The notes under the pieces are model-generated. The model did no database searches. It saw only the letters and a list, made by a program, of their open reading frames with translations, and was not told the origin of the DNA. This document shows, piece by piece, positions 2,493 to 21,520 of a stretch of DNA of 64,000 bases. This DNA is from Bacteroidia bacterium (lineage in GTDB: Bacteria; Bacteroidota; Bacteroidia; UKL13-3), in assembly GCA_014376805.1 (NCBI GenBank), contig JACMQU010000017.1, positions 47,167 to 111,166 on the forward strand. Direction: 5' to 3'. The position numbers were made by a program, and so were the translations under genes. The first letter of the stretch is position 1. Every line of letters starts with the position of its first letter.

Positions 2493-3605
2493 CTACGGCA
2501 ATTTATTTTTTAAATTTACTAAATCCCTTTGCTCATAAATTCTTTCAATAATATCTACAACCTTTAATCCTTCAGCCGCATTTGCGGTAGCTGTATCTGT
2601 ACCCTTTAACGTATTTACAACATTCTCTATTACATAATGGTGGTTGGCGGCACTACCTTTAAACGGTCCGTAATCATTTGGAGGATTCGTTTCAGCGAGT
2701 TCAGGCATCTGGTAGTTTTTAATATGACAATAAGTTACTTCATTCATATATTGTCCGCCAATTCTGAAACTGCCATTTGCTCCCAGCACAGTTATACTAC
2801 TTTCCATATTTGTATCCCACACCGATGTTGAAAAATTAATACAACCTAAACCACCGTTTAAAAATTCAAAATTAACTACGCCACTATCTTCAAACTCAGT
2901 ATTGTTGCTGTGGTTAAAATCCGCAAAAGTTGCTTTAATGTTTTTTATATCGCCAAATACCCAATACATTATATCTATAAAGTGACTGAATTGTGTAAAT
3001 AGGGTGCCGCCATCATATTTAAGAGAACCTTTCCAGTTTGTTTGTAAAGTATTTTTAACTGTTTCACCTAAAATATTACCTTCCTGTTTTTTTATTTCTT
3101 CAGGTTTATAATAGTGCGCATCCCTGTTCCAAAAGCAATTGATCTGAACCATAAATACCGGGCCTGTTTTTCCGATACTTACTATTTCTTTCATCCATTT
3201 AACGGGTGGACTATACCGGTTTTGCTTCACTACAAAAACTTGTTTATTAACTTGCTGCGATTTTATTATTACCTGTTCACATTCTGATTTAACAAGACCC
3301 ATAGGCTTTTCAATAACCACATGGTAACCTGCATCAAGCACTTTTAACGCATAAGCACAATGATAGCCATTAGGAATTGCAAGAGTAACAACATCGGCAA
3401 AAACAGGTGTATCTAAAAACTGATCAATACTTTTAAAAAATTTCGCTCCAACAGGAAAAAGTGCATGATTTACCACCTCCGCATTAATATCTACAACTGC
3501 CACTACACTTGCCCCCGGATATTCATTCGCTATGGTTGCATGTCTTTTACCGATATGACCAAATCCAATAATAACAAATTTTATTTTATCCTCGTTAATT
3601 AGCAT
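2493..3605 (-). CDS. Gfo/Idh/MocA oxidoreductase, WbpB/WlbA-like
   Basis: N-terminal Rossmann motif FVIIGFGHIGKRHA, VIEKPMG signature, gene context. Confidence 0.85.
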   Translation of the reverse strand: MLINEDKIKFVIIGFGHIGKRHATIANEYPGASVVAVVDINAEVVNHALFPVGAKFFKSIDQFLDTPVFADVVTLAIPNGYHCAYALKVLDAGYHVVIEKPMGLVKSECEQVIIKSQQVNKQVFVVKQNRYSPPVKWMKEIVSIGKTGPVFMVQINCFWNRDAHYYKPEEIKKQEGNILGETVKNTLQTNWKGSLKYDGGTLFTQFSHFIDIMYWVFGDIKNIKATFADFNHSNNTEFEDSGVVNFEFLNGGLGCINFSTSVWDTNMESSITVLGANGSFRIGGQYMNEVTYCHIKNYQMPELAETNPPNDYGPFKGSAANHHYVIENVVNTLKGTDTATANAAEGLKVVDIIERIYEQRDLVNLKNKLP

Positions 3606-3762: not shown

Positions 3763-3802
3763 ATCAGAATAGAAATACACTACATTTTATTCAGTTTAGG
3801 TG

Positions 3803-4933
3803 TTAGTTAAAAAGTGTTTTCATTTTTTCAGTTACACGCTTCAAATCATCCATTGTTAAATTTGATCCGGAAGGTAAGCATAAACCATTTTCAAAAAGTT
3901 TTTCTGCTGTACCATCTCCATAAAAAGGATATTTCTCAAAAACCGGCTGCAAATGCATTGGTTTCCATAGTGGCCGACTTTCAATGTTTTCGGTTTCAAG
4001 GGCCAGGCGTATATCTTCTCTGCTTATACCGTTTGTTTTCTTTGGATCAACCAAAATACAGGAAAGCCATCTGTTACTAAAAAAGCCTTCAGGTTCTTTA
4101 ACAAACTGAATAGGTAAATCTGCCAGTTGCTGCTCATAATAGGCATGATTGAATCTGCGTTGTTTAACCCTGTCGTTAAGAACAGTCATTTGTCCTCTGC
4201 CTATAGCGGCACACACATTGCTCATACGGTAATTATAGCCAATGTGCGAGTGCTGGTAATGCGGAGCAGCATCTCTGGCCTGTGTTGCTAAAAAGCGGGC
4301 TTGTTTAATATAGTTTTCATTTTCAGAAATCAATGCACCACCGCCACTTGTGGTAATTATTTTATTACCATTAAATGAAAGTATTCCTAAATCACCAAAA
4401 GTTCCGCATGCTTTCTCATTTATTTTTGATCCTAATCCTTCGGCGGCATCTTCAATTACGGCAATATCAAATTCGTGGGCAATGGCCATTATTTCTTTCA
4501 TTTGAGCTGGCATGCCATACAAATGAACAGGAATGATTGCTTTAGGTTTTCTGCCTTTAGAAATCCTGTCTTCAATAGCAATCCTCAGGTACTTCGAACT
4601 CATATTCCAGGTGTCAGTTTCAGAATCAACAAATATGGGAATTGCACCCTGGTAGACTATTGGATTTGCTGATGCTGAAAAAGTAAAACTCTGACACAAT
4701 ACCTCGTCATCACGTTCTACACCTAACAAGATTAGCGACAAATGTATAGCAGCAGTTCCTGCACTTAAAGCAGCAGCATTTTTTGAGCCGGTAAAGTCAC
4801 ATAAGTCTTTTTCAAAACCATCAACATGGGGCCCTAATGGAGCTATCCAATTGGTGTCGAATGCCTCTTTAACATATTCAAATTCTTTGCCTCCCATATG
4901 GGGAGATGAAAGCCAGATTTTCGGTTTAGTCAT
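3803..4933 (-). CDS. DegT/DnrJ/EryC1 aminotransferase, PglE-like
   Basis: KIWLSSPHMGGKEFEYVKEAFDTNWIAPLGPHVDGFE, SAGTAAIHL, SFNGNKIITTSGGG (PLP lysine); followed by a PglD-like gene. Confidence 0.82.
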   Translation of the reverse strand: MTKPKIWLSSPHMGGKEFEYVKEAFDTNWIAPLGPHVDGFEKDLCDFTGSKNAAALSAGTAAIHLSLILLGVERDDEVLCQSFTFSASANPIVYQGAIPIFVDSETDTWNMSSKYLRIAIEDRISKGRKPKAIIPVHLYGMPAQMKEIMAIAHEFDIAVIEDAAEGLGSKINEKACGTFGDLGILSFNGNKIITTSGGGALISENENYIKQARFLATQARDAAPHYQHSHIGYNYRMSNVCAAIGRGQMTVLNDRVKQRRFNHAYYEQQLADLPIQFVKEPEGFFSNRWLSCILVDPKKTNGISREDIRLALETENIESRPLWKPMHLQPVFEKYPFYGDGTAEKLFENGLCLPSGSNLTMDDLKRVTEKMKTLFN

Positions 4934-4938
4934 TAATA

Positions 4939-5553
4939 TTATTTTATACTGTTTTTTATAATTTTTGCAGGAACGCCAACAGCGGTGGAGTAATCAGGGA
5001 TATCGTTTATAACAACAGCACCTGCTCCTATGTTACAAAATTTTCCAATGTTTATATTTGGCAAAATTACAGCACCACTGCCAATAAAACACCCTTCTCC
5101 AATTTTTACATTACCGGATACATGAACGCCGGCCATTATGGAAACATAATCTTCAACAATAGTATCGTGTCCAATAGTGGAGTAAATATTAATGATTACA
5201 TGATTTCCAATCAACACATTTACGGTTAAAATTACACCGGCACAAATGATATTGCCAATACCTAATTTATTTGATTTGTTTATTTTTGAAGAAGGATGTA
5301 TAATATTAAAAAATTGTATCTGATTATCCAGATTACTGATTTTTTTTCTTATTGCCGGATCAGCTATAGCGATCACACAACTGGAGTTTTTTTCAAGTTC
5401 TTTCCTTACGGGCAGCTCTTCAAATAAATGTTCTCGTTTAAAATCATCGATAAAGCCAAGTACGTTAAACTTTTTATCTTCTATATCTGAAATTAACCAA
5501 AGCGTTTCTTTCCCCATTCCGCCCGCACCATAAATCCAGATAGTATTAATCAT
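4939..5553 (-). CDS. NeuD/PglD-family sugar O/N-acyltransferase
   Basis: N-terminal IWIYGAGGMGKE nucleotide-sugar domain plus hexapeptide repeats (IGEGCFIGSGAVILPNINIGKFCNIGAGAVV, VGVPAKII). Confidence 0.82.
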   Translation of the reverse strand: MINTIWIYGAGGMGKETLWLISDIEDKKFNVLGFIDDFKREHLFEELPVRKELEKNSSCVIAIADPAIRKKISNLDNQIQFFNIIHPSSKINKSNKLGIGNIICAGVILTVNVLIGNHVIINIYSTIGHDTIVEDYVSIMAGVHVSGNVKIGEGCFIGSGAVILPNINIGKFCNIGAGAVVINDIPDYSTAVGVPAKIIKNSIK

Positions 5554-5569
5554 TAAGCAAATAAATGAT

Positions 5570-7417
5570 TTATTTCCTTACCCATTTGTTATACCAGTTA
5601 ATAAATATCTGAAACCGGATTAAATACTCCAGGTTAGATTTTAACTGCGGTTGGTTTTTTATACGCTTAATAAATTGATAAATTTCTTCATTAATTGGTC
5701 TAAATGTCTCCAGGTATTCATCTATAACCGATATAAAATCATTATCCTGAATCCAGTCTCTGAGCGGAGGTGTAAAGCCCTGTTTTTTTCTGTGAATTAT
5801 TCCCGATGGAATATTCGGAAGATTATTTTCAAAATATTCTTTAAGTAGAATTTTATTATTATTTATACTGCATTTTAATTCAGTGGGTATTCTTAAACTA
5901 AATTCAATTAACCGGTAATCTAAAAATGGACTTCTCACTTCAATAGAATTATACATGCTGGCTTTATCTACTTTGGTAAGGTATTTATCTGCTAAAGAAT
6001 AATATAATAAATCAAACATTCTAAGTCCTTCAGATAAATTGTTATTGGTAAGGTCTAAACATTCTTTAAGCCTTTCACTTGACCATTTTTTAAAACTCTC
6101 TGAAATATATCTTTCGTTGTCTAAAAAATCACTTATAAAATTTTCGTTTTTTAATAAGGAGAGTTTTAGTGCTTCTTTAACAGGCCTTAATTTGGAGCTG
6201 TTTTGTTTGTTTAAAATGTTGAGAAATGTTTTACGTAAAAAAGCCGGGATTAACCTCACCCGATCTATTATTATAGCTCTGCTGTAAGGTTCATAACCCC
6301 CAAATATTTCATCCCCTCCATCTCCGCTTTGCACTACAGTAACGTGCTTTTTAGCCATTTTAGAAACATACATAGTTGGATACCCTGAATAATCTCCAAA
6401 GGGTTCATCATATACGAATGCATAATTTTCCTGATTCTCTTTCCAGTCATATTTATGATAATATTCATGGTGATGAGTTACATTTTTCAATTCATTAGCT
6501 GCCATGTTTATGTATGACGTTTCATCAAATCTGCCTTCAAAACCTACTGAAAAAGTATGAAAATGTTTTATGTCATATTGCTTTAATATTCCATAAACAA
6601 TGCCAGTGCTGTCAATGCCTCCGCTTAAAAAAGAACCAACAGGCACATCACTTCTCATTCTTAATTTTATGGAATCTTTAAATAAATAATCAAGTTCCGC
6701 TGTTAGTGTTTTTTTATCGTAATTTACTTTCTGAATTTCCGGTTTAAAATACCTGTATGTTTTATATTCACCTTTGTTTAAATCAAAAAGCAGGTTATAA
6801 CTAGAATTTAGTTTAGACACATTATTAAAAATAGTTAATGGCGATGGAATAAAGCCACATGAAAAGTATAATTCTACTGCCTCGGCACATATATTACTCT
6901 TTATATTTATATTTAATTCCGCATGCTGCAAGATGCCCTTTAATTCAGAACTAAAAATGAAAATACCGTCTTTAAAATAATAGTAAAATGGTTTTACTCC
7001 TAAACGATCTCTTGAACAAAACAACACTTGTGTTTGAGGGTTATAAATACAAAAAGCCCACATTCCATTAAACTGGTTAACACAATCTTCTCCCCAGTAA
7101 TCATAAGCAGCTAAAATTACTTCTGTATCACACTGCGTATAAAATATATAACCTTGCTTTTTTAAAGTTTCTCTAACTTCAATATAGTTATATATTTCTC
7201 CATTAAAAACCATTACGTATGAGCTGCCTTTACACTTATAATGAAACGGTTGATTTCCAGCATCTGTTGTATCAATAATAGACAGTCTTACATGACCAAA
7301 AGTAAGTTTATCGGTGCTCCAAACGCTTTGGTTATCAGGCCCCCTATGAATAATCTCCGTATTCATGGCTACTGCTAACTTTTCGTTTTTAAAATTAAAT
7401 CCGTTTATCCCGCACAT
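5570..7417 (-). CDS. Asparagine synthetase (glutamine-hydrolysing)-like amidotransferase, paralog 1
   Basis: MCGINGF with Cys2, RGPDNQ, FNGEIYNY, SGGIDSTGI PP-loop, SGDGGDEIFGGY. Confidence 0.92.
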   Translation of the reverse strand: MCGINGFNFKNEKLAVAMNTEIIHRGPDNQSVWSTDKLTFGHVRLSIIDTTDAGNQPFHYKCKGSSYVMVFNGEIYNYIEVRETLKKQGYIFYTQCDTEVILAAYDYWGEDCVNQFNGMWAFCIYNPQTQVLFCSRDRLGVKPFYYYFKDGIFIFSSELKGILQHAELNINIKSNICAEAVELYFSCGFIPSPLTIFNNVSKLNSSYNLLFDLNKGEYKTYRYFKPEIQKVNYDKKTLTAELDYLFKDSIKLRMRSDVPVGSFLSGGIDSTGIVYGILKQYDIKHFHTFSVGFEGRFDETSYINMAANELKNVTHHHEYYHKYDWKENQENYAFVYDEPFGDYSGYPTMYVSKMAKKHVTVVQSGDGGDEIFGGYEPYSRAIIIDRVRLIPAFLRKTFLNILNKQNSSKLRPVKEALKLSLLKNENFISDFLDNERYISESFKKWSSERLKECLDLTNNNLSEGLRMFDLLYYSLADKYLTKVDKASMYNSIEVRSPFLDYRLIEFSLRIPTELKCSINNNKILLKEYFENNLPNIPSGIIHRKKQGFTPPLRDWIQDNDFISVIDEYLETFRPINEEIYQFIKRIKNQPQLKSNLEYLIRFQIFINWYNKWVRK

Positions 7418-7504
7418 ATTAATATTGGTAGTAAAATTCGAATCTCATAATATATTCTTAATAATAATAATAAATTATGAAAATTAATTATTATTTAATA
7501 TTAT

Positions 7505-8581
7505 TTAAAATTTTCCATTAAAACTTCTTAAAAGTTCAGACTCTTTCATTAAAACAGGTAATGAATCTACATCTCTTAAGAAGATCAGATCTTTTTCAAA
7601 TTCATATAAAATAAAGTCCTTTTTAAAAGTAGTGTCATTGTCTAATAATCTAATGGTATCCTCCGCAAAATTAGCTCCACCCGCTGCAAAACATTGTGTA
7701 AATGCTACATGTCTCACATTTATTTCTGTTATATATGGTTTTTTATTTTCATCCTCTTTAAAATCTACCGTATAAAAGCCATGTTGTTTAGCACCTGTAT
7801 GGGCAAATAAATGATCCATTGCCTTCTTCGCTTCAGCAAACAATTCAGGTTCATTCAATAATCGTCCGAAAGATGTATTACCTGTAATACCTGAAGGAGC
7901 TACTTTAGACATGATGTAGTTCACTCTTTCTCCACAGGCGGATCGTAGCAGTTTACCTTCATAATATAACAGTTTACAAGCAAGATTCCTTCCGGGTAAA
8001 AATTTGCTGGCTAAAAATTCTTTTACCCCGGGGTTAATTTGAATCCAGTTTTTCAGGGCATCTTCACTCTCTACTTTTAAAGAACCTAAACCGCTTGTAC
8101 CTGAGGTGCTTCTTACCCAAAAAGGGAAATTCAATGTATCATATACATTTCTTAAATCTTTATCATCGCTGTTAAATGAAACTGATAAAGGGACTATATC
8201 AAGTTCCTTCAGGATATTTGTCATTTTGGCTTTATCAACCAATAATTCAGCCATGCTTAAATCCGGTAATAGTACCTTACATGGCAAATCATGTGTTTGC
8301 ATTCTTTTGCTCCATTCCATTACCTCCAACTCTGGTAAGATAACGGCAATTTCGATCTGATTTTCTTTGATGATTTTTTCAATTTCTTCCCAATAATTTT
8401 TATCGGTAGCCCTCGGTACTATATAAGATTTATTGTATAACTCTGTTTGATATAAACCAATTGATAAAGGATTGATATCGGTTGCAATTATTTCGAAACG
8501 TTTATAAAAGCTGTATTTTTTTAATGCAATGGCAAAACTGCGTGGAGTAGGCCCACCCACACCGGTAATTAATATTTTCAT
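7505..8581 (-). CDS. ATP-grasp protein (carbamoyl-phosphate-synthase-like fold)
   Basis: MKILITGVGGPTPRSFAIAL N-terminus, FPFWVRSTSGTSGLGSLKV, YITEINVRHVAFTQ ATP-grasp C-terminal motif. Confidence 0.75.
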   Translation of the reverse strand: MKILITGVGGPTPRSFAIALKKYSFYKRFEIIATDINPLSIGLYQTELYNKSYIVPRATDKNYWEEIEKIIKENQIEIAVILPELEVMEWSKRMQTHDLPCKVLLPDLSMAELLVDKAKMTNILKELDIVPLSVSFNSDDKDLRNVYDTLNFPFWVRSTSGTSGLGSLKVESEDALKNWIQINPGVKEFLASKFLPGRNLACKLLYYEGKLLRSACGERVNYIMSKVAPSGITGNTSFGRLLNEPELFAEAKKAMDHLFAHTGAKQHGFYTVDFKEDENKKPYITEINVRHVAFTQCFAAGGANFAEDTIRLLDNDTTFKKDFILYEFEKDLIFLRDVDSLPVLMKESELLRSFNGKF

Positions 8582-8863
8582 TTTTCGTAAGTTTAATTTT
8601 AGTTAAATTTTTTCTCACTAATCAGAAGCTAGATAGCCCGTAAAAACTTTAATTACGGATGCCATTAATTCTTTTAATAGTAGGATTAAAACTCAATTTT
8701 AATAGAGTTGGTAAATAAACGTTATAATTATACAAGTGGCTAATTAGTCTAATAATAAAACATTAATTTTATAGTTTAGTTTTCTATTGTTTTTAATTTT
8801 ATACAGCTAAGTAATATTTTTTACACACTTAGACTTTTATAGAACATATCGCCCAAAATATAC

Positions 8864-9874
8864 TTATGCCTTCAGATAAGATTCAAGAACTGGTTTCAAA
8901 CCTTTTTTTACGGGTAATTGCCATAATAGCTTACACCAATCATGGTTCCCCTCAATTAATTCTGCTCCATTATTGGTGATAGCTATATCCCAACCGATAG
9001 ATTTGTTGGATACGTTTTTTAAAGCAGCTTGTTTAATCATTTTTATGGTCTCTGGCCAGAATGGCACTTCAAACCCAACTATTTCTATACCTGTAACCGG
9101 ATGAAAATATTCGTCTTTTTTAGTAATATCGCTATATACGCCTGGCCCGGTTACCTTACCACTTATTTCATCTATAGGAGCAGCAATATTGCCAGCGGCC
9201 ATATTATCTATGGGTGAATTTATAGTGATTCTTAACCTGCATCCTAATATATCTACTTCATTCTTTTTATTTATCTGGGTGATTATCCGGATTGTATTTA
9301 AGCCAGAAGGAGAGAGTTCCATTAGCTTGCTGTGTTGCACCACAAACTCTTCTACAAAATCATTCGAGGTTTCCAGTAATCGGGCAACTAAGGTGTCCGC
9401 ATTTAACTCATTGCTTTTTCTCACTTCAATACCATTACCGCATTGCCCCCGCGAGTCTTTAAGTACAATCTTACCGGAGGTATTGGATAACATTCTATCA
9501 CCGGTTTTTTTATCTTTTTGTAAATCATTCAATGATGCAAATGAATGTTTTACAAAAGTTCCGTACTCCTTTAAAAATGTAAGTTTATCCTCCAGTACAC
9601 TCCTGGTCTCCTTCGGATTCATCTTTAATTGAAACTCATACATATAACCTGTTCCGGCATAAGTTAGTTTTTCCTTTTCAGAAATTTCATAAAAGCGAAA
9701 GTTAAAATATTCCAGTAATGATATGTTGTAAGTTATGCTGGAGCGCACCATATCCAGCCAAATACTTGCTTTAGATTTCTTGGTGGTGTTGCTGGCAAAA
9801 GTTAGAAACTTATTTAATTTAGATTTATCAAGTTCTTTAAAATAGTAAGCTAAATATAATATACGTTTGATCAT
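8864..9874 (-). CDS. Sugar-transfer-associated ATP-grasp-like protein
   Basis: KIVLKDSRGQCGNGIEV, LNTIRIITQ, NMAAGNIAAPID, IGWDIAITNNGAELIEGNHDW; adjacent to the sugar transferase gene. Confidence 0.75.
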   Translation of the reverse strand: MIKRILYLAYYFKELDKSKLNKFLTFASNTTKKSKASIWLDMVRSSITYNISLLEYFNFRFYEISEKEKLTYAGTGYMYEFQLKMNPKETRSVLEDKLTFLKEYGTFVKHSFASLNDLQKDKKTGDRMLSNTSGKIVLKDSRGQCGNGIEVRKSNELNADTLVARLLETSNDFVEEFVVQHSKLMELSPSGLNTIRIITQINKKNEVDILGCRLRITINSPIDNMAAGNIAAPIDEISGKVTGPGVYSDITKKDEYFHPVTGIEIVGFEVPFWPETIKMIKQAALKNVSNKSIGWDIAITNNGAELIEGNHDWCKLLWQLPVKKGLKPVLESYLKA

Positions 9875-9876
9875 AA

Positions 9877-10512
9877 TTAATTGTTTCCGTTAAAAGGTTG
9901 CATAGGTCTGTTTTCAGATTGATTTACACCTTCAGTTTTTATAACTTTAAGAAAAGTTAACCAAATTATTTTTACGTCTAATATAAAAGATACATTATCT
10001 ACATAATAAATATCCAGATTAAACTTTTTTGACCAACTAATGCTATTTCTGCCATTAACCTGAGCCCAGCCTGTTATGCCGGGTTTAACCAGGTGTCTTC
10101 TTTTCTGATGCTCATTAAATAAAGGAATATATTTATACAATAGAGGCCTTGGACCAACAACACTCATATTGCCAATTAAAACATTTAGTAACTGTGGTAA
10201 TTCATCAATGGAAGTTTTTCTAATAAAAAATCCTAAGGGTGTAATGCGGATATTATCAGGCAAGAGTTTTCCATTTTCATCTCTGGCATCGTTCATTGAT
10301 TTAAACTTTATTATGCGTATGCTTTTTTCGTTCTTACCCGGCCTCTCCTGCGTGAAGAATGGATTTCCTTTTAAACTAACAGCATTAGCGATGGCAACAA
10401 ATAATATTACAGGGGAGGTAATAAGTAGCCCTACAATTGAAATAATTATATCAAGCAGTCTTTTAAAAATTTTAAGATACATAAGATTGAAGATATTTAC
10501 CGGCATTCGCAT
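9877..10512 (-). CDS. Initiating sugar-1-phosphate transferase (bacterial sugar transferase, PglC-like)
   Basis: KRLLDIIISIVGLL, FFTQERPGKNEKSIRIIKFKSM, RKTSIDELPQLLNVLIGNMSVVGPRPLL, GITGWAQVNGR. Confidence 0.92.
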   Translation of the reverse strand: MRMPVNIFNLMYLKIFKRLLDIIISIVGLLITSPVILFVAIANAVSLKGNPFFTQERPGKNEKSIRIIKFKSMNDARDENGKLLPDNIRITPLGFFIRKTSIDELPQLLNVLIGNMSVVGPRPLLYKYIPLFNEHQKRRHLVKPGITGWAQVNGRNSISWSKKFNLDIYYVDNVSFILDVKIIWLTFLKVIKTEGVNQSENRPMQPFNGNN

Positions 10513-11629
10513 TTGTAAAAAATTGCGCTGCTATTTTAGAATTTTCTGATAATAATTTTTGCTTGTCCGGATGGTTTTTCATGTTGAGAATAAAATCTAT
10601 GATCCCCTGTTTATCATTTTTGGGAAAACACTTACCATTATGAAATTGTTCAATGTGTTTGTTTAATTCAGAATCCATACTGGCAATGCCTAAAAGTGGA
10701 ACACCTACTGCCTGAAGATTGTATATCTTACTTGGAATACTTACATGGGATGTTTTATCGTCAAGCAGTACCACACCTAAATCTGCCGCAGCCAGCGAAT
10801 AATTTAGTTCATTATCTGCCTGAAATGGCATTAAAAGGCAATTGTTTAATTGATAAGTTGTAATTAATTCCTGTATTAATTTAACTTTCTCGCCTCTGCC
10901 AATTATCAAAAAAATTAAATCCTTTTCGTTTTTCAATTCTTTCGCTATTTCAACTAATTCCTCTACATTATGTGTGTATCCAATATTACCCGAATACTGT
11001 ACGATGAATTTATTTTCAAGTATATTTCTTTTTATCCATGGATTATTTTCTTTGCTTACACTATGTAATTTTGTTAAACCAGACCAGTTAGGAATTATTA
11101 CCATTTTGTTCCTGCTCATGTAAGCATCCACTAATTTGGCCATGCCCTCACCAATGGTATATACTCTATGTGCTTTAGCAAATATTTTTTTATTTTGTCT
11201 GCCCCAAAATTTATAAAGCCAGTTACCTTCATTTATATTATATATTTTTAAAACATCAGGATAAACATCAAATATAAGTATAGAAAACTTATTCTTTAAA
11301 AATGCGGATAAGAGATAAGCAGAAGGTGGTATTGTAATATAAAATATATCATAGCTGCGGTATTTGGTTAATAGTAAGAAGTAAATCTGCAATGTACCTA
11401 TCAACCATGAAGTTAATTTTCTTGCGGGATTTCCTCTGTCATATTTAATGATAGTAGAAAACGTTACATTTTTATTTAATTCAATATCCTGTACCCTTAT
11501 ACTGCCGGATATCAATGCTACTTTATCAAAATCATTGGCAAATGCATTGATTATGTCAATTGTTAAATAACCTGTAGCCTGGTTAATAAATACAATTTTT
11601 TTTAACGCTGCTTTATTAGGTTTTTGCAT
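10472..11629 (-). CDS. Glycosyltransferase, GT4-like (GT-B)
   Basis: VYTIGEGMAKLVDAYM, VIIPNWSG, QYSGNIGYTHNVEEL, GVVLLDDKTSHVSIPSKIYN. Confidence 0.82.
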   Translation of the reverse strand: MQKPNKAALKKIVFINQATGYLTIDIINAFANDFDKVALISGSIRVQDIELNKNVTFSTIIKYDRGNPARKLTSWLIGTLQIYFLLLTKYRSYDIFYITIPPSAYLLSAFLKNKFSILIFDVYPDVLKIYNINEGNWLYKFWGRQNKKIFAKAHRVYTIGEGMAKLVDAYMSRNKMVIIPNWSGLTKLHSVSKENNPWIKRNILENKFIVQYSGNIGYTHNVEELVEIAKELKNEKDLIFLIIGRGEKVKLIQELITTYQLNNCLLMPFQADNELNYSLAAADLGVVLLDDKTSHVSIPSKIYNLQAVGVPLLGIASMDSELNKHIEQFHNGKCFPKNDKQGIIDFILNMKNHPDKQKLLSENSKIAAQFFTNANAGKYLQSYVS

Positions 11630-12732
11630 AAATTTATATAACTCAAAGCTCTTTCTTCTGCTGTTTTAAAAATAATTCGTCGTTCTTTACCTTTGGTTAT
11701 AAGTTGTTTCTGGAGTTCAGTATTTTCCATCAGCAAGTGCAATTTGTTGCTTATATCTTTTTCATTTAACGGATCAAAATAAATCGCTGCCTCTTCGCAT
11801 ACTGTTCTTGCAAAGCCTAAATCAGCAGTAACTATCGGCTTTTCCATAAACATGGCTTCTACATACGAGGCCGAAAAGCACTCTAATAAAGTGGGTAAAA
11901 ACATAGCATCACATTCTTTATATAACGAGGCACATTCTGCTACCGGAACCGGACCAACATTATAAATATAAGGGTGATATTTTTCCTGAAAAATCCCTGT
12001 AAATATGGTTTCAGGTAGGGTTAAAACAAACCTCATTTTTGTATCAGGATTGTCTTTAATTTCGAGGTCAATTACTTTCCTTATAATTTCAAAATTTTTA
12101 TGAGGATGGTATGCTGACAGAAGCAAAAATCTATACTCATTTTTTTTTCTGTCTTTTAACTTATCAGGAAAAACAAGCGGATTAAAATAATGAGAACTGC
12201 AACTATTTGATACGGTAAATACATGAGGCGTTTTTAACCATTTTTTTACCCTTAAATTTACATCATCCGTTTGCACAACATAAGCGTCTGTTTCTTTTTT
12301 AAAGAAATGTGCTTTAAGTTTCCCCCTTATTTTCCATCTTATTTGCTTCCAGAAAGGAATGATTTTAAAAAAAGGCGAATCTGTATAAATATAATGACCT
12401 AAGTTGAAGCCAACAAGATGAGGAGCTTCGGGAGTCCAGTAAGCCGGTCCTGAAGTTGTGAATACTACATCCGGGTTTACTTTTTTTTCTACTTCTTGGA
12501 AGAAAGATGTTACAGGTTTAAGTGAAAATATTTTGGTAGCAGGTCTTACGTCAATGTCGTAAAAGTAGAAATTATCAGGAAAACTTTTTTTGTTTATAGT
12601 CTGTCCTATATTACCTCCTAAAATCACATGAAATTCGTGCTCCTTAAATTTCTTACATTCCTCAATAAATGATTTAGCTACCTGTAAGCCTCCACCTTTA
12701 AGTGTAGAAGCGGTATTAATAATTAATCTCAT
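11602..12732 (-). CDS. Glycosyltransferase, GT4-like
   Basis: STLKGGGLQVA, FLLLSAYHPHKNFEII, DAMFLPTLLECFSASYVEAMFMEKPIVTADLGFAR. Confidence 0.82.
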   Translation of the reverse strand: MRLIINTASTLKGGGLQVAKSFIEECKKFKEHEFHVILGGNIGQTINKKSFPDNFYFYDIDVRPATKIFSLKPVTSFFQEVEKKVNPDVVFTTSGPAYWTPEAPHLVGFNLGHYIYTDSPFFKIIPFWKQIRWKIRGKLKAHFFKKETDAYVVQTDDVNLRVKKWLKTPHVFTVSNSCSSHYFNPLVFPDKLKDRKKNEYRFLLLSAYHPHKNFEIIRKVIDLEIKDNPDTKMRFVLTLPETIFTGIFQEKYHPYIYNVGPVPVAECASLYKECDAMFLPTLLECFSASYVEAMFMEKPIVTADLGFARTVCEEAAIYFDPLNEKDISNKLHLLMENTELQKQLITKGKERRIIFKTAEERALSYINLCKNLIKQR

Positions 12733-13808
12733 TTGGAAGTTAAAAAAGAATAATATTTATCGCAGATATCTTCTGAAGAGAATTCTTTGATTTTCAACAT
12801 TGCGTTTTGTTCAAATTGAGTTCTTAATTGTTCATCATTCATTAGCAGCTCCAGTTTATATCTGAATTCCGAAATGTTATTCTCTTCTATCAGATAGCCA
12901 TTATTGTTATCGGTAATTAAATCTGCCGGCCCGGCCGAGCAATCATAAGAAATACAAGCCAGTGGTGTTGCTAAGGCTTCTGCCAGTGCGTTTGGAAAGC
13001 CTTCCAGAATAGAGGTAAATGCAAATATTTTACTTTTCTTATAGTAATCATCAACATTTTTAACTTCTCCTGTAAAATCTACTTTATTTTCTATTCCTAG
13101 TAACTTTACTTTATTTTTGGCCGCTTCCAAACATCTTCCATTTCCTATTAAAACTAATTTCCAGTTTTCGGTTTTAATACCTGCAAATATTTCAATTAAT
13201 TGTATTTGTTGTTTTGTTGTTTCAAACCGCCCAACATTTACAATAATATTTTCTCTTACAATATTTTCATTTTGCCCGAAGTTTCTTATTGGATTGCCAA
13301 TTGTGATTATATTTTTATGGTTTGTAACAGAAAAAATTTTAGCGTTTGCATGGCTCGTTTGAGCTATTATTCCAATGGTTTTACGATATAAAATGCCTCT
13401 CAGAATTTTATGCATTATGGAGAGTTTTAACTTTGGTGAACTTCTGTCTGAAACAAATAATTTATATTTTGTAAATAGTAACAATAGAATATTGAATGAA
13501 TTCCACTTTTCTCCAAAACTTAATACAATATCCGGGTTGATTTTTTTTATCGCTTCTCTGGTAAATAGTAAAGTTTTTAATGTAAATAAGATTTTGTAAT
13601 TTTTATTATATTTTACGGGTGGCTCTATAACTTGTATAGCTGGATCAAGATCATAAAATCTCTTGTTTCTACTGAGCAGTATAAATGTAACTTCAGCATT
13701 TTTATTGCGAATAAAATTATGAGCAATTTCAACCATTACGCGTTCCATACCGCCACCAAATAAAGAAGGCAGGATAAAACAGAAATGCTTTTTTGTATTT
13801 TTTATCAC
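12729..13808 (-). CDS. Glycosyltransferase, GT4-like
   Basis: LFGGGMERVM, VNVGRFETTKQQIQLIEIFA, SKIFAFTSILEGFPNALAEALATPLACIS; 4-nt overlap with the next gene. Confidence 0.85.
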   Translation of the reverse strand: MIKNTKKHFCFILPSLFGGGMERVMVEIAHNFIRNKNAEVTFILLSRNKRFYDLDPAIQVIEPPVKYNKNYKILFTLKTLLFTREAIKKINPDIVLSFGEKWNSFNILLLLFTKYKLFVSDRSSPKLKLSIMHKILRGILYRKTIGIIAQTSHANAKIFSVTNHKNIITIGNPIRNFGQNENIVRENIIVNVGRFETTKQQIQLIEIFAGIKTENWKLVLIGNGRCLEAAKNKVKLLGIENKVDFTGEVKNVDDYYKKSKIFAFTSILEGFPNALAEALATPLACISYDCSAGPADLITDNNNGYLIEENNISEFRYKLELLMNDEQLRTQFEQNAMLKIKEFSSEDICDKYYSFLTSK

Positions 13809-14026
13809 GGGTTTATAGACTTTATATCATAGAGCAATTTTTTTAATACAATTTGTTTAATATTCCATGTAAATTATTAAAGAATAAATAATTTTATAAA
13901 TCTATATGTTAACAATAGCACTTGTACTTTTATATATATTTAATGGACTCAAAATTTGAATTTTTCCTAACTCATTTATCAATGGTATAATGAAAATTAA
14001 ATTATATCTGCAATCGTATCTGCTGT

Positions 14027-15058
14027 TTATTTAATTATATTTTTTTCTTTAATGTTTTTAACTATTAAATCTACCATCCATGCCTGTGAATTAAATGAAC
14101 CTTCAAAGAAGTTCATTTCCATGTCCCAGTAACCAACGCATGGATAGTAAACCTGCTTTACATAACCATAGCTAATTTCTATAACATAAGGTTTGTCATT
14201 CTTATAAACAAAATCAATAGCAAGACAATCTGAATTTAATTTCCGCGCAATTTCAAATGATAGTTTTATCGTACTCTCATCAAAATTCTCTTTCTCATAT
14301 TTTATAAATCCACTGCCTGATGCTCTAAAATCATTTTCTCTAACCATTCTTTTAATGGCAAAAGCCTTTCCGTCAATTACTATAATTCTTATATCGCAAT
14401 TGTTATTCGGAATAAACTCCTGGAAGTAGATATATCCTCTTTCTTTTCCCGCGTATTTTGCAAATTTTGGAGGGTATACAAATCTTAATAACCCCTTCCC
14501 AATATCAACCAGTGTTGCCTTTCCGTTTTTATATTTTCTAATACGTTCTAATAAGTTCGACCACGCATTGTATTGGCTGAACCCACTATCAAAAGCTTTA
14601 TTAATTAAGGATTTAGCTTTTGAGTGTGAAAGCACTAATCTTACATTTGCTGATCCTGCTCCACACCTTAATTTAAAGACTTTTGGAAAAGAAGTAGTAC
14701 CAATCCATTTCAGAGCATCTTTTTTATCATAAAAAACGTGTGTTTTTACGAGATCAATTCCATGCGATTCTAATAAATATTTTTGTCCAACCTTATCGTC
14801 AAAATGCCAAACGGTATTATAGTTAGGAAAAACTACTTTACCGGTTGCTTCAAGAGAAAATATTAATTGCTTCGAAAACAGGAAATCTTTAGAACTTGAA
14901 TGATTTGGATGCCACATAAACGCATCACAATCCTGTAACTGCTCGATGATATCATTGCGGTAACAATCCACCAGTTTAAATGGAATTTTTTTGTCCAGAC
15001 AATATTGTATCCAGCGATCAGAAAAAGAGTCAAGGCTAGTTTGAATGGCTATTTTCAT
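14027..15058 (-). CDS. ATP-grasp protein (RimK-like appearance)
   Basis: FPKVFKLRCGAGSANVRLV, YIYFQEFIPNNNCDIRIIVIDGKAFAIKRMVREN, CLAIDFVYKNDKPYVIEISYGYV. Track start 15088 lies inside the upstream AsnB; MKIAIQ at 15058 is the likelier start. Confidence 0.78.
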   Translation of the reverse strand: MKIAIQTSLDSFSDRWIQYCLDKKIPFKLVDCYRNDIIEQLQDCDAFMWHPNHSSSKDFLFSKQLIFSLEATGKVVFPNYNTVWHFDDKVGQKYLLESHGIDLVKTHVFYDKKDALKWIGTTSFPKVFKLRCGAGSANVRLVLSHSKAKSLINKAFDSGFSQYNAWSNLLERIRKYKNGKATLVDIGKGLLRFVYPPKFAKYAGKERGYIYFQEFIPNNNCDIRIIVIDGKAFAIKRMVRENDFRASGSGFIKYEKENFDESTIKLSFEIARKLNSDCLAIDFVYKNDKPYVIEISYGYVKQVYYPCVGYWDMEMNFFEGSFNSQAWMVDLIVKNIKEKNIIK

Positions 15059-16958
15059 GATTTTCAAATTTTTGAATCCAAATTTCAAAACTCAACATAG
15101 TCCAGAGGGCATCTAATTGATGTGAATTAATGGTTGCAATATTATTGAACCAATTTTCAATTAATTTTCCATTGAATAGTTGTCTTTGTTTTATACTTAA
15201 TATTAATTTTTCTTTAAATGCTTTATTTTTCATAAATGAAAATATAAACTCTCTCAGTGGAATACCAAATCCCATCTTATTTCTGAAAGCGAATGACTTA
15301 CCGAATTTCTTTGCACAGATCTCCTTTAATAAAAGTTTTTCTTTGTTATGTGGATTAAAACTATCGGAAATTAAAAAATTTGCAGGGATATTAAATGAAT
15401 AATCCAAAACTTTATTATCAAGAAACGGCACCCGGTTTTCAATTGAATGAGCCATCGACATTTTATCCTGACGCATTAATAAGTCGGGAAGGTAGGTTTG
15501 TATTTCATATTTTACCTGCTTATCAAATGAATTACCCGTTAGCTGATTATACTTATCTCTTCTTTGAGCTATGGCAGCATCAAAGTTAAAGTCGGGTTTT
15601 AACATTTTTGCAATTCCCGGTTGCATATAACTTGAAAACAACGGAGCCCGGAGTGATGGATCTGTATAATACTTAAGGTAACCAAACAAATCTTTTTTAT
15701 TTCTATTAATGGAGGAAAGAAACATTTTGGAAAAGTATGGCCTGAGTGCACTGGAGAATCTTGGATAACCCCCAAACGTTTCATCAGCTCCCTCACCACT
15801 TAAGAGCACGGTAACGTTTTCTTTTGCACGTTGGCTGAGTAAGTATATCCCAATGCTATTTGGATGATTTACGGGACTTTCCAGATGCCAGGATACATTC
15901 TCCAATTGATTAAAATAATAATCAGTTTTTAGGGTATATTTATGTTGTATTAAAGAAAGTTCTTTACCTACATGATCAACAAATGGTTCTTCAGAATATT
16001 TTTTATCATCAAATATGATGGAGATCGTTTCTAAAGATCCTTTCTTCATTTTATTAGATGCAAAATAAGTTACCAAAGAAGAATCTACTCCCCCGGATAG
16101 TTGACAACCAACTTTAACATCACTTATCAATTGCCTTTCGACACTTTCATCCAAACAATTTTCTAAGCCATCAAATGCATCCTTAAAACTGATTTGGTTA
16201 TTTTTAACTCTTTGATAAGTATCTATATTAAAAAACCTTTTCTTCTTAAAATTTCCCGATGATAATATTACGTATTCTCCAGGCTCAATATTTTCAATAT
16301 TTTTAAATAATGTTTGATTAATACTATTTCTAAAAATAAGAAATTCATCAAGTAATGATTCTTTAAGTTCGAATTTAAAATCTGGTAAACAATAAAAACT
16401 TTTAAGTTCAGAAGCAAAAGAAAATGTGGAACCGTTATTATAAAAGTATAAAGGTTTTATCCCAAATCTATCCCGGCAAAAGTATATTTCATTAGAACGT
16501 AAATCAGCAATAACAATAGAAAACATGCCATTCAGTAACTGAATCATTTTATCAAAACCAAATTCTAAATATAAGTTTAAAACTACTTCAGTATCCGTTC
16601 TACTTCTGAATTTATGACCTTTTGTTTCCAGATTACTTCTGAAATCGTTGGCATTATAAATTTCTCCATTGAGCAAAATCATCACTTTTGCTGAGGCATC
16701 TAACATAGGCTGATGTCCGGCAGAAGAAAGATCCTGAATGCTAAGCCTGTTAAAACCAAAAATACAATTAAAGCCATTGGTATAACTTTCAATTTTATCA
16801 TTTGAAAGATTTGTGATAGAATCTCCATTATGGTTAAATCCAATTACACCTGAATCATCAGGGCCTCTGTGTTTCTGTATTTGAATCATTTTCAAAATAA
16901 TTTCATTTGAAAATGATTTATGATTATTTAAATTTATATATCCTGCAAAGCCACACAT
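15036..16958 (-). CDS. Asparagine synthetase-like amidotransferase, paralog 2
   Basis: MCGFAGY, RGPDDSG, LNGEIYNA, CQLSGGVDSSLV, LSGEGADETFGGY. Confidence 0.92.
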   Translation of the reverse strand: MCGFAGYINLNNHKSFSNEIILKMIQIQKHRGPDDSGVIGFNHNGDSITNLSNDKIESYTNGFNCIFGFNRLSIQDLSSAGHQPMLDASAKVMILLNGEIYNANDFRSNLETKGHKFRSRTDTEVVLNLYLEFGFDKMIQLLNGMFSIVIADLRSNEIYFCRDRFGIKPLYFYNNGSTFSFASELKSFYCLPDFKFELKESLLDEFLIFRNSINQTLFKNIENIEPGEYVILSSGNFKKKRFFNIDTYQRVKNNQISFKDAFDGLENCLDESVERQLISDVKVGCQLSGGVDSSLVTYFASNKMKKGSLETISIIFDDKKYSEEPFVDHVGKELSLIQHKYTLKTDYYFNQLENVSWHLESPVNHPNSIGIYLLSQRAKENVTVLLSGEGADETFGGYPRFSSALRPYFSKMFLSSINRNKKDLFGYLKYYTDPSLRAPLFSSYMQPGIAKMLKPDFNFDAAIAQRRDKYNQLTGNSFDKQVKYEIQTYLPDLLMRQDKMSMAHSIENRVPFLDNKVLDYSFNIPANFLISDSFNPHNKEKLLLKEICAKKFGKSFAFRNKMGFGIPLREFIFSFMKNKAFKEKLILSIKQRQLFNGKLIENWFNNIATINSHQLDALWTMLSFEIWIQKFENHENSHSN

Positions 16959-16978
16959 ACAATTGTTGATTACTTGAA

Positions 16979-18889
16979 TTAATTTTTAGAATTTATCCAA
17001 CAATCATACCACATCTGGAACATTAACATCTTCCAAATGAAGGTGGTATAATGAAGTTTGCCACTTTTAAATTCTTTAACCTGTGCCTCTACAAAATCAA
17101 CATTAAACAAACCTGATTTTGCTACCGCAATATTGTTTAGATATTCATCTATCAAAAAGGATAAATCTTTTTTTAACCATGAATAGATAGGCAGAGTAAA
17201 ACCTCTTTTTGGCCGATCCATTAACTCTTTGGGAATATATTTATGTACGATGTCTTTTAATATTTTTTTGCCGGTATTCCCATCTAATTTATACTCAATT
17301 GGTAATTGAGCCGCAAATTCAATTATTCTATGATCTAAAAGGGGTTCTCTGCCCTCTAATGATACTGACATAGTTGCTCTATCCACTTTTGTAAGAATAT
17401 CATTCTGTAAGTACATCTGATAATCTATTGCCATTGCAGTTTCGATAGAATTGTGAAAGCCGGTTATATCTAACTGATTAGAAGTGTCAATTTTTCTGAG
17501 ATAATTCTGGAATAATTTTTCATGATATTTTTTAGGTAAGCTATTCATGAAACCGGTTAAATCTGCAGCTTGATTTAAATCATCAGCTTGTAGGGCTTTA
17601 GAAATACCTTCAATTTTATGTTTTAAGATATAGGAATTATCAGGAATTACCGTTGAAGCAAACAATCCGATTTTTTTTGCCAAGGGCTTTAAATAGTTGG
17701 GTATTCTGTTCATTTGAGACAGATAGGAATTTAACCGGATATAATTAGAATATCCACCAAAAACTTCATCACCTGCATCAGCCGACAAGGCAACAGTTAC
17801 TGTTTGTCTTGCCAGTTTACTCACCAACATTGTTGGGATTGCAGAACTATCAGCAAATGGCTCATCAAAATAATACGGAAGCGTTGGAATTATTTGTTGT
17901 GCTTCGGTGGTGGTACAAATAAATTCGTGATGATCAGTACCTAAATAATCAGCAGTTTGTTTTGCTTGTGGTGCCTCACTGTTACCTTCTTCAAAACCAA
18001 TGGTAAACGTTTTTAGTTTATTTGATCTGCCTGTTTGCAGCATAGCAGCAACGGCAGCACTATCATAACCTCCACTCAGAAATATACCTACAGGTACGTC
18101 AGATACCATTCTGTATTCACAGGCAGATTTTATCGTATGATGCAGAATTATTTTTGCACTTTCATAATCAATTTTTAATTTGGGTAGTTTGTAGAAAGTG
18201 GAAACCTCCCAATAAGATTCTATTTTAAGTGAACGGTTAACTAAGTTTAATTTAATGAGATGTCCGGGTTTAAGCTTATACGTATTTTCAAATATGGTAT
18301 GCGGTGCGGGGATATAACCATGGTGAACCTGACTAAAATAAAGTTGAACTGCATTCTGATCAATTTTCTTTTCAAAATCGGGGTGAGGATGCAAAGCTTT
18401 TAATTCTGAACCGAATAAAAATAAGCCTTTATTCCAGTAATAATAAAAGGGTTTTGCACCAGCTCTGTCTCTAACAATTGTTATCTCATTTAACACTGAA
18501 TCATAGATAGCAAAGGCAAACATTCCGATAAATTTGTGGATTGACTCAATGCCCCATTTTTCGAAAGCCTGTAAAATCACCTCTGTATCACACTCAGATT
18601 TAAAAATGTGCCCCTCCTTGATTAACTCTTCTCTTATTTCCTGATAATTATAAATTTCTCCATTGAATACAATGCTAAAGTGCTTATAATTCATAGGCTG
18701 ATGACCGGCCTCGCTTAAATCTATAATAGATAAGCGAGCCTGGCCTAAACCTACTGAAGCAAAAGAATTTTTATATATTTCAACACCCTTATCGTCTGGT
18801 CCACGATGATTCATCGTATTAACCATCTGTTCTAAATGTGTTTGTGTTGATTTTAAATTGAAATCAAAAAAGCCGGCTATTCCACACAT
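16979..18889 (-). CDS. Asparagine synthetase-like amidotransferase, paralog 3
   Basis: MCGIAGFFDF, RGPDDKG, FNGEIYNY, IFLSGGYDSAAVA, SADAGDEVFGGY. Confidence 0.92.
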   Translation of the reverse strand: MCGIAGFFDFNLKSTQTHLEQMVNTMNHRGPDDKGVEIYKNSFASVGLGQARLSIIDLSEAGHQPMNYKHFSIVFNGEIYNYQEIREELIKEGHIFKSECDTEVILQAFEKWGIESIHKFIGMFAFAIYDSVLNEITIVRDRAGAKPFYYYWNKGLFLFGSELKALHPHPDFEKKIDQNAVQLYFSQVHHGYIPAPHTIFENTYKLKPGHLIKLNLVNRSLKIESYWEVSTFYKLPKLKIDYESAKIILHHTIKSACEYRMVSDVPVGIFLSGGYDSAAVAAMLQTGRSNKLKTFTIGFEEGNSEAPQAKQTADYLGTDHHEFICTTTEAQQIIPTLPYYFDEPFADSSAIPTMLVSKLARQTVTVALSADAGDEVFGGYSNYIRLNSYLSQMNRIPNYLKPLAKKIGLFASTVIPDNSYILKHKIEGISKALQADDLNQAADLTGFMNSLPKKYHEKLFQNYLRKIDTSNQLDITGFHNSIETAMAIDYQMYLQNDILTKVDRATMSVSLEGREPLLDHRIIEFAAQLPIEYKLDGNTGKKILKDIVHKYIPKELMDRPKRGFTLPIYSWLKKDLSFLIDEYLNNIAVAKSGLFNVDFVEAQVKEFKSGKLHYTTFIWKMLMFQMWYDCWINSKN

Positions 18890-19263
18890 AACACTATTGA
18901 TGTTTATTTTTTTCTCTCATACCTAGTTTGCTAAAAAATTAGCTGAAAATCCGGAGGTTAAGTTCACTTTTTTTTTAAATATTTTTTAAATCGCAGCTTA
19001 TTATACTATTAAATGATAACACTTAATTTCTTTTAAATAATATATCTCGTATGTGTTGCAATATATATATTAACTCTAAGATTCGGGGCATCAAAATTTT
19101 CAGTTGTTACTTTATAAACTTAATTGCAAGGATACCTGTAAACTGTAATATACGTTTTTATAAAAATTGATGTTTTGTGCCAATATGATATAACCTGTAA
19201 TTACTTATTTAAATTTTATAGCAGTTGTTGTTTTTTAGAAATGAAGTTTCTAACGAAACAGAT

Positions 19264-20400
19264 TTATAAGGTTTCGCTGCTCTTAATAATTTCACCCATT
19301 TTAGCAGATGAAACAAATTCAATATCCGGCCACCTGTTTTTAACTTCTTGAAGTAGTTTTTTAAGCAGGAGGAGATTTTTTTCGCTATTAACTTTATTAA
19401 TCGAACCAATATAATTAACTCTATGTGTGCTTACTATTGCGGGTTTCTTCCATCTAAAAGCAACAGATATTTCATTGAGGCAGGAATCTACCCAATCTTT
19501 ATTCCGGTCTGTAACCGGTTCAAATGTTACATTTCTTATCGTGTATATTTGATTCAGATCATTTTTCTGACCAGTAAATTTGCGTTTATATGTTAAGGCC
19601 TGGCCTTCCATACCTGGTATTAATTGTACTCTTCCCGACTGTATAAATTCAATTCCGTTTTCCAAAAAATAATTTTCTGCAATTGGGTGCCAGATATAAC
19701 AAGGCGCTATTACTGATTTTGACTTGTAACCCCATAACTTTTCAAAAATGTTACATCCTTCCACAATGATATTCTGAAGTTCCGTAAGTTGGTTCAGACT
19801 ATAAGTTCCAAATCCATCCAGATTTTCATTCCTGCATAAAGATCCAACACCGCGGGCAATTGTAAACATATTCTGATCGAAAGCCATTAGGGTTGGCTTA
19901 TCACCTTTTTGGAGGTAGTTAAACCAATTATTTATATTGATGTGTTCTCTGCCATGAAATTGGGGAATAAAAATTCCTTTGCCAATTCCTTCTTTATACA
20001 AATCAATTACCCTGTTATGTTGCGGATAATGCTTAAGTGTTTCCGTAAATATCTCATAATGATATTCTGTATATCCTGAAGCTTTTATTTTTTCAAAATC
20101 AGGGTTTGCTACAATATTATTAGCGGTTAGCACGGCATGATTTCCGTTACTATCTTTTATAGAACACAACTGTTCAAATAAGTTTTCGAGATCCATATTA
20201 CTCTCTAGTGAATCATTAGAATTATAGGGACATTTATCAACAGGAATACCTGCTTTTAAAAATTTGTCGTATGCGTTTTTTGAGGAGACCCTTATCGAAC
20301 CCCAGTCATCAGATTCCAAAACCAATAATTTACGGTTAGTATGCCAACCCCTCATATTGATAATATTTGTTTTTAAATTTTCTTTTAAATTTCGAATCAT
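19264..20400 (-). CDS. Polysaccharide deacetylase-like protein, tandem copy B
   Basis: LLVLESDDWGSIRVSSKNAYDKF, FIPQFHGREHININNW, IVSTHRVNY; clear paralog of 20402-21520. Confidence 0.65.
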   Translation of the reverse strand: MIRNLKENLKTNIINMRGWHTNRKLLVLESDDWGSIRVSSKNAYDKFLKAGIPVDKCPYNSNDSLESNMDLENLFEQLCSIKDSNGNHAVLTANNIVANPDFEKIKASGYTEYHYEIFTETLKHYPQHNRVIDLYKEGIGKGIFIPQFHGREHININNWFNYLQKGDKPTLMAFDQNMFTIARGVGSLCRNENLDGFGTYSLNQLTELQNIIVEGCNIFEKLWGYKSKSVIAPCYIWHPIAENYFLENGIEFIQSGRVQLIPGMEGQALTYKRKFTGQKNDLNQIYTIRNVTFEPVTDRNKDWVDSCLNEISVAFRWKKPAIVSTHRVNYIGSINKVNSEKNLLLLKKLLQEVKNRWPDIEFVSSAKMGEIIKSSETL

Positions 20401-20401
20401 A

Positions 20402-21520
20402 TTATTTATCGAGCATCATCTTCGCTAATTCTTTAACTGTTATAAACTCCACATCCGGCCAGCGTTTTTTAATTGTTTTAAGCAGGGTAGATAATTGCAT
20501 AAGACTATCTTCTCTGTTTGCTGGATTTAAATGACCGGCATAGTTGGCCCGATGTGAACTTATGATAGCAGGTTGTTTAAATTTAAAAGCATTTTCAACG
20601 TCTGATAAGCACCTCTGAATGGAATCAAAATTTTTATTGTCATTGGGTTCAAAAACGGCATTTCTTACAAGATAACGCTGGTTAAATTTTGTATTCTGAC
20701 CAATAAAATGATAATGTCTTTTAAATTCATTGTGGCCTATGGTTTCATTTTCAATCCTGGGCGAGTCTATCAACCTGATCCCTTTATCTGATAGCGTTTT
20801 ATATAATGCGTGATTAATGGTTGCATTTGGAGGTGTAAAATGAATGGCTTTATATCCTAACAATTGTTCAAATAAATCCAGCCCTTCAATAATTATTTTA
20901 TGTTGCGCATCAATATCCGATGGAGTGTCAATTTCAAGCGCAGGCTGATAATCCCAGTTAAGCATAGGTGTATATTCTTTGCTTAATGAAGTTATATTAT
21001 CCTTGAAAGCGGCTTTGGTAACATTTACATTATTTTGTAAATCACTCATCCACCTTCTAACATTCAGGTGTTCTCTGTTATGTGATTGAGGTACAAATAT
21101 GCCAAGTTCTATACCTTTTTCCCATAAACTAAATACCCTGTCATGATTTTCATACCTCTTTAATGTTTCAGTAAAGGGCTCATAAAAATACTCTTTAAAA
21201 TCGTTCTGTCTGATCTTCTCAAAATTAGGGTTTGCTACGCATACTGCCGGTGTAAAAGCTGCGGGATTGTTATGGATATCTTTAACGGAGAGGAGTACAT
21301 TAAAAAGTTCTTCTAAATCGGTATTTGATTCAATTGTTTCAAATTTACTGTAACGGCATTCTTCAAAATTAACTCCAATATCCGTAAGCCTGGTAAATGC
21401 ATCTTTGGATGACATGCGAATACTACCATAATCATCTACAACAAAAAGTAACAGTTTACGGTTAGTTTTATAACCCGGGATATTAAATATATTTTTAACA
21501 ATGTTTTTTATAATATTCAA
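20402..21520 (-). CDS. Polysaccharide deacetylase-like protein, tandem copy A
   Basis: LLLFVVDDYGSIRMSSKDAFTRL, FVPQSHNREHLNVRRW, IISSHRANYAGH; paralogous to the neighbouring gene. Confidence 0.65.
   Translation of the reverse strand: MNIIKNIVKNIFNIPGYKTNRKLLLFVVDDYGSIRMSSKDAFTRLTDIGVNFEECRYSKFETIESNTDLEELFNVLLSVKDIHNNPAAFTPAVCVANPNFEKIRQNDFKEYFYEPFTETLKRYENHDRVFSLWEKGIELGIFVPQSHNREHLNVRRWMSDLQNNVNVTKAAFKDNITSLSKEYTPMLNWDYQPALEIDTPSDIDAQHKIIIEGLDLFEQLLGYKAIHFTPPNATINHALYKTLSDKGIRLIDSPRIENETIGHNEFKRHYHFIGQNTKFNQRYLVRNAVFEPNDNKNFDSIQRCLSDVENAFKFKQPAIISSHRANYAGHLNPANREDSLMQLSTLLKTIKKRWPDVEFITVKELAKMMLDK

Follow-up and report, generated by a model that had tools for sequence, protein, structure and literature searches.

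Two separate amide-forming decoration cassettes are probably present in one locus of a Bacteroidia bacterium (UKL13-3). The locus is an O-antigen or capsule gene cluster and lies in a window of 64,000 nt, the whole stretch of DNA analysed (GCA_014376805.1, contig JACMQU010000017.1, 47,167-111,166, forward strand). Window positions 5570-18889 were followed up. This region contains three AsnB proteins (A1, A2, A3) and three ATP-grasp proteins (G1, G2, G3), which the original prediction had treated as a possible single amide-decoration module. Profile searches and an alignment with E. coli AsnB confirmed that the six genes are real, located where predicted and intact in their key motifs. The single module was rejected, since the A2/G3 pair and the G1/G2 pair are distributed over different genomes, and A1 lacks close relatives in the order. 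Instead, two cassettes and an unlinked AsnB, A1, were found. Cassette I (12729-21520) has the order U2-U1-A3-A2-G3-GT_c, cassette II (approximately 541-10512) the order PglC-G2-G1-(A1)-PglD-PglE-WbpB/D/E. The gene identities, the key motifs, the predicted folds of G3 and U1, the co-occurrence and the conserved gene order are established. The host genome (G000) is 88.5% complete, and all genome-wide absences are bounded by this value.

Co-occurrence and gene order of cassette I

Clear relatives of G3 were detected in six of 64 genomes of the order, its own included. A separate search for A2 in 62 genomes identified exactly these six, and A2 was located directly upstream of G3 in each. The 64-genome set was also used for AsnB counts, the 62-genome set for the G1 and G2 searches. 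An identical genome set has a chance probability of about 2e-8 if the genomes are independent, a value that is too small given their shared ancestry. Within the phylum, G3 was found in 27 of 396 genomes, with an identity of at least about 48% in 19 of these, the host among them. The original prediction was to be abandoned if homologues did not co-occur outside this strain; A2-G3 as well as G1-G2 proved to be strictly paired.

At least 521 relatives of G3 were found by a scan of genome contigs; of the best 80, which were retained, 79 were usable as named loci (L numbers, which denote G3/G2 loci). These loci were picked via G3 and therefore show gene order, not unbiased frequency. The usual order in the best 80 loci is EpsG-U-(U)-CapA-A2-G3-GT_c. 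Carriers of the block include the environmental, culturable species Flavobacterium paronense (L194) and Fodinibius sediminis (L145). At most six genes away from G3, U proteins were found in 61 of the 79 named loci, GT_c in 60 and AsnB in 41. A2 is directly upstream of G3 in 38, and in many loci the two genes overlap or nearly touch. In the window the ATG at 15058 is a better start for G3 than the listed TTG at 15088, and G3 shares its first 23 nt with the end of A2. CapA (PGA_cap, 1.7e-60) is present in 51 of the 79 G3 loci; none was seen in the window, whose CapA slot is taken by A3.

Other arrangements were observed as well. A DUF362 protein (approximately 443-499 aa), often together with a small protein of 172 aa, replaces AsnB upstream of G3 in L159, L198 and about ten other loci. 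ATP-grasp genes in a row or two copies of G3 side by side occur in L167, L112, L113, L117, L166, L173 and L183. Up to five successive ATP-grasps were found in a metagenome-assembled genome of Aliifodinibius (L167), namely two ATPgrasp_ST-like proteins, G3 and two further ATPgrasp_ST-like proteins. These tandem arrangements hint at successive ligations.

Predicted functions of G3 and the U proteins

ArgX, RimK and LysX join an amino acid to a carboxylate. G3 carries a RimK-like domain (PF08443, 54.7 bits, cut-off 21) and scores below the cut-off of the subfamily TIGR00768 (66.4 vs 143.4 bits). The AlphaFold2 (AF2) model of G3 has a pLDDT of 91.7, and its best folds in the PDB are ArgX (bound to LysW/Glu), RimK and LysX (Foldseek E 6e-16). 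D282 and E294 are invariant in 48 relatives.

For U1 an AF2 model with pLDDT 95.1 was obtained. Its best Foldseek match was the putative peptidoglycan deacetylase HP0310, followed by ArnD. The motifs DD (D31 D32) and HxxxH (H149 H153) are invariant in 45 U sequences. No Pfam family matched U1 or U2; one relative gave DUF2334 at 8e-4, below the cut-off. From the modelled fold and the invariant motifs, the U proteins are thus probably N-deacetylases or N-deformylases. The locus of these two ArnD/CE4-like genes also contains two formyltransferase-like genes (27421-28293 and 33312-34316). A formyl group could conceivably be added and then removed again, as by ArnA and ArnD.

According to the proposed mechanism, cassette I would act in the cytoplasm and modify a sugar of the repeat unit. 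An N-acyl group would be taken off by the NodB-like U proteins. G3 would activate a carboxylate as acyl phosphate and join it to an amine, whereby most likely an amino acid is attached. A2 would then form a glutamine-dependent primary amide from a carboxylate left on the G3 product or on its uronate acceptor, and A3 would convert an N-acetylated uronic acid to the uronamide. For both cassettes we infer all substrates, products and the order of the steps. Only tentatively, U-(CapA)-A2-G3 may be regarded as an undescribed, widespread pathway for an aminoacyl or short peptide-like glycan side chain, in which a RimK-type ligase acts on a sugar and not on a protein and glutamine-dependent amidation follows. 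Loci with tandem G3 copies, or with runs of as many as five ATP-grasps, would then be versions for longer chains.

Several points weigh against these assignments. G3 has Ser where the ExN motif of ATP-grasp proteins usually has Asn, and U1 reaches only modest TM-scores against known deacetylases (0.33-0.46 for the best matches, normalised to the query). In some loci G3 is present but A2 is not, and CapA, DUF362 or a different ATP-grasp gene takes its position; hence the reaction of G3 cannot depend on A2 everywhere. Unbiased counts are those at the level of the order, and these genomes share ancestry.

AsnB-type amidotransferases

All three AsnB proteins match Asn_synthase and GATase_7 (profile search, E 1e-37 to 3e-93), and no further Asn_synthase match was found in the host genome. 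With 429-459 bits on TIGR01536 (cut-off 267) they belong to the AsnB-type amidotransferases. Alignment with E. coli AsnB showed full conservation in A1-A3 of Cys2, of the Arg, Asn-Gly-Glu and Asp of the glutaminase and of SGGxDS, as predicted for Cys2 and the PP-loop SGG. The claimed unusual density was retained in part. The six genes are present, but at least three AsnB matches (E<=1e-60) were counted in at least 8 of the 64 genomes, and one of these, G037, has three within 10.6 kb. Several AsnB per genome are common in the order, so three AsnB genes are not rare in themselves.

Glu348 and Arg387 of E. coli AsnB are important for asparagine synthetase. In a part of the alignment that is weak, Glu and Arg are aligned at these positions in A2, Asp and Lys in A1 and A3. 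Among the 81 sequences compared, the Glu348-site motif is SGEGADE in A2 and 47 others; SADxGDE is shared by A3 with four close relatives, and SGDGGDE by A1 with four further sequences. These differences suggest different acceptors for A1, A2 and A3. In the phylogeny A2 forms its own clade (SH-aLRT 100); A1 has a long branch and its placement is unsure.

The asparagine synthetase of the cell could be among the three AsnB proteins of the glycan locus, with A2 and A1 as the likeliest candidates. Neither AsnA nor an AsnB beyond A1-A3 was found in the host genome, the motif SGEGADE of A2 is close to SGEGSDE of E. coli AsnB, and AsnB-type enzymes of B. subtilis can complement an asparagine auxotroph of E. 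coli (PMC8554201). We consider this explanation quite improbable. A2 is missing from 56 of the 62 genomes of the order and occurs in the remainder only beside G3, a separate tight AsnB clade of eight relatives (approximately 590 aa) looks more housekeeping-like, and the absence of AsnA was seen in an incomplete genome.

A3 is the only one of the three that scores better on TIGR03108 (525 bits) than on TIGR01536 (459 bits). A1 is about level (424 vs 432 bits), and for A2 the general AsnB model is favoured (319 vs 429 bits). The TIGR03108 cut-off (816.9) was reached by none of them. A3 is therefore called WbpS-like and not a member of that equivalog. WbpS and WbqG were assigned to TIGR03108, and deletion showed that PGN_1234 is needed for the uronamide (PMC7468200). 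A3 resembles WbpS, WbqG and PGN_1234 as an AsnB-type protein with preference for TIGR03108 in a locus with wbp genes; it differs from WbpS and WbqG by its score below the cut-off, and A2 and A1 do not share the preference. This likeness is judged by family model; WbpS, WbqG, VimA and VimE were compared through family models. From its sequence, A3 is a probable uronamide former. Relatives of A3 adjoin U genes without G3 in G044, G035 and G036, other genomes of the order.

Another explanation concerns type IX secretion (T9SS), on which the host relies heavily, as indicated by 141 matches of the T9SS C-terminal domain TIGR04183 in its genome. A3, WbpB/D/E and the U deacetylases might make a Wbp/Vim-type linking sugar for the T9SS, like the one of Porphyromonas gingivalis, whose uronamide is formed by WbpS (PMC7468200). 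WbpB/D/E, a WbpS-like AsnB and CE4-like proteins do stand together in the locus. This is nevertheless unlikely: WbpB/D/E are part of the PglC block, and no match for Acetyltransf_6 (PF13480, VimA-type) was detected in the 88.5% complete host genome by a profile search in which VimA itself was not the query. The original claim of glycan amidation, by contrast, is well supported by the WbpS/WbqG-family preference of A3, the UDP-uronate enzymes of the locus and the amino-acid-ligase fold of G3.

Cassette II and the position of A1

The ATP-grasp proteins are of three different kinds, as predicted: G1 is PylC-like, G2 belongs to ATPgrasp_ST (146 bits, cut-off 31.4) and G3 is RimK-like. Among 62 genomes, the three with G1 are precisely the three with G2. 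Relatives of G1 have 73% identity in G014 and 64% in G036, and both these genomes show the order G2-PglC-(acyltransferase)-G1-(PglD)-PglE-WbpB-WbpD-WbpE, to which the window adds A1 after G1.

In F. psychrophilum (Flavobacterium psychrophilum) variable genes beside homologues of PglC/PglD/PglE are predicted to set the 4-N-acyl group of Qui2NAc4NR (PMC6519341). Cassette II occupies the same slot as these R-group cassettes. R1 of F. psychrophilum was predicted from KAS III/KR genes (PMC6519341), whereas the window has G2, G1 and A1. G1/G2 and KAS III/KR genes near PglC never coincided (4 vs 18 of 27 loci, p=0.007), a comparison limited to the 27 named loci with enough sequence, as the retrieved sequence breaks off within many G2 loci. 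Thus, G1 and G2 probably supply another 4-N-acyl group of the initiating Qui2NAc4N sugar. Cassette II would build this R-group through ATP-dependent ligation, whereas F. psychrophilum would use a type-II-fatty-acid-like hydroxyacyl route.

It was also considered whether independent decoration genes landed in one variable locus without a joint pathway. Close relatives of A1 are missing from the order, relatives of A3 stand without G3 in three genomes, and G1/G2 and A2/G3 occur in different relatives. For the locus as a whole we regard this as improbable, because A2-G3 and G1-G2 are strictly paired and adjacent in the order and the A2-G3 genes overlap or nearly touch in many loci. For A1 alone, mere co-location is the best explanation: no match (E<=1e-100) was found in 61 other genomes of the order, and A1 is absent from the corresponding slot in G014 and G036.

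Surrounding locus

The features are compiled in Table 1. The locus further contains the pseudaminic acid genes PseB, PseC, PseG and PseI, a WbuX/HisH/HisF acetamidino set, WbpB/D/E-like genes and Wzx-like, EpsG-like, Wzc-like and Wza-like genes. The nonulosonic acid block (29263-35754) includes a class III aminotransferase, an aldo/keto reductase, an RNase_T exonuclease-like gene and a DUF4910/DUF2172 protein, a content that is unusual for a plain pseudaminic acid set. An alpha-2,8-polysialyltransferase-like protein (PF07388, 1.5e-16) is encoded at 22784-23926, beside the decoration genes. A link to phages was dropped, as a scan of viral contigs gave one weak match with 25% identity.

Table 1 Features of the locus (window positions, all on the minus strand)
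Feature	Position	Assignment	Evidence and context
WbpE	541..1686 (-)	WbpE-like aminotransferase	DegT-type families, top PseC 232 bits (below cut-off); kept in block
WbpD	1817..2392 (-)	WbpD-like N-acetyltransferase	hexapeptide acetyltransferase families; kept in block
WbpB	2493..3605 (-)	WbpB-like oxidoreductase	GFO_IDH_MocA; block kept in G014, G036
PglE	3803..4933 (-)	PglE/LegC-like aminotransferase	DegT 5.2e-96, TIGR04181 392 bits
PglD	4939..5553 (-)	PglD-like N-acyltransferase	PglD_N 5.3e-10, Hexapep
A1	5570..7417 (-)	AsnB amidotransferase	Asn_synthase 9.9e-68; inserted between G1 and PglD
G1	7505..8581 (-)	PylC/CarB-like ATP-grasp	PylC-like_N PF21360 4.6e-07
G2	8864..9874 (-)	sugar-transfer-associated ATP-grasp	ATPgrasp_ST PF14397 1.2e-42
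PglC	9877..10512 (-)	PglC/WfpB-like initiating sugar-phosphate transferase	Bac_transf 1.6e-61; adjoins G2, G1 in G014, G036
GT_a	10472..11629 (-)	glycosyltransferase	Glycos_transf_1 5.3e-12; relatives adjoin PglC-like gene in some loci
GT_b	11602..12732 (-)	glycosyltransferase	Glycos_transf_1 7.2e-13; relatives similarly placed in some loci
GT_c	12729..13808 (-)	glycosyltransferase travelling with G3	Glycos_transf_1 2.7e-37
G3	14027..15058 (-)	RimK/ArgX-like ATP-grasp ligase	RimK PF08443 1.3e-14
A2	15036..16958 (-)	AsnB-type amidotransferase, G3 partner	Asn_synthase 1.7e-69; overlaps G3
A3	16979..18889 (-)	WbpS-like AsnB amidotransferase	TIGR03108 preference
U1	19264..20400 (-)	putative NodB/CE4-like deacetylase	fold and invariant motifs
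U2	20402..21520 (-)	second putative NodB/CE4-like deacetylase	37% identical to U1, same DD and HxxxH
EpsG	21530..22783 (-)	EpsG-family protein, putative Wzy-like polymerase	EpsG 5.7e-10; upstream of U genes in many loci
TviC	42750..43748 (-)	TviC/WbpP-like UDP-uronate 4-epimerase	PRK15181 TviC 318 bits, below cut-off 760
TviB	48847..50103 (-)	TviB/WbpO-like UDP-GlcNAc 6-dehydrogenase (uronate supply)	PRK15182 TviB 533 bits, below cut-off 592

Comparison with known systems

G3 resembles RimK, ArgX and LysX in its predicted fold and its C-terminal RimK-like domain. It differs from them by an identity of about 16%, by Ser for Asn in ExN and by its occurrence in glycan loci with AsnB and NodB-like genes. 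Amidation of the capsule glucuronic acid with an amine was shown for the C-terminal ATP-grasp amidoligase of C. jejuni Cj1438 (PMC11800379). Unlike G3, Cj1438 belongs to a TupA-like subfamily and is fused to a glycosyltransferase, and the accessible part of that source mentions no AsnB partner (PMC11800379).

A uronamide together with 3-N-malyl and acetimidoyl sugars was described for glycans of Pseudoalteromonas rubra and Vibrio vulnificus. The glycan of Flexibacter maritimus contains a nonulosonic acid and a Qui-type sugar that bears a 2-hydroxyglutaryl amide (PMC3210612). These groups are of the kinds that the window enzymes could make; two of the glycans carry acetimidoyl, and the window has WbuX/HisH/HisF. 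The three species are known in this respect from glycan structures, in contrast to the window organism, which is known from genes alone.

The original suggestion of undescribed chemistry was therefore too broad, as glycans of this type with uronamides and amide-linked acids have already been described (PMC7468200, PMC3210612). The reactions are of a familiar kind; what is new is the AsnB/RimK-like pair, which recurs in surface-glycan loci of Bacteroidota and related bacteria. An AsnB/RimK/CapA glycan module was not described in the literature searched, a coverage to which most subscription journals do not belong.

Amides and amide-linked acids alter the charge and antigenicity of bacterial surface glycans. 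To our knowledge, most of the ligases that attach dicarboxylic acids or amino acids to sugars of O-antigens have yet to be assigned. A2-G3 with deacetylase and CapA neighbours is a defined recurring gene set that is testable in culturable Flavobacterium and Fodinibius, and its gene order could allow the prediction of amide groups.

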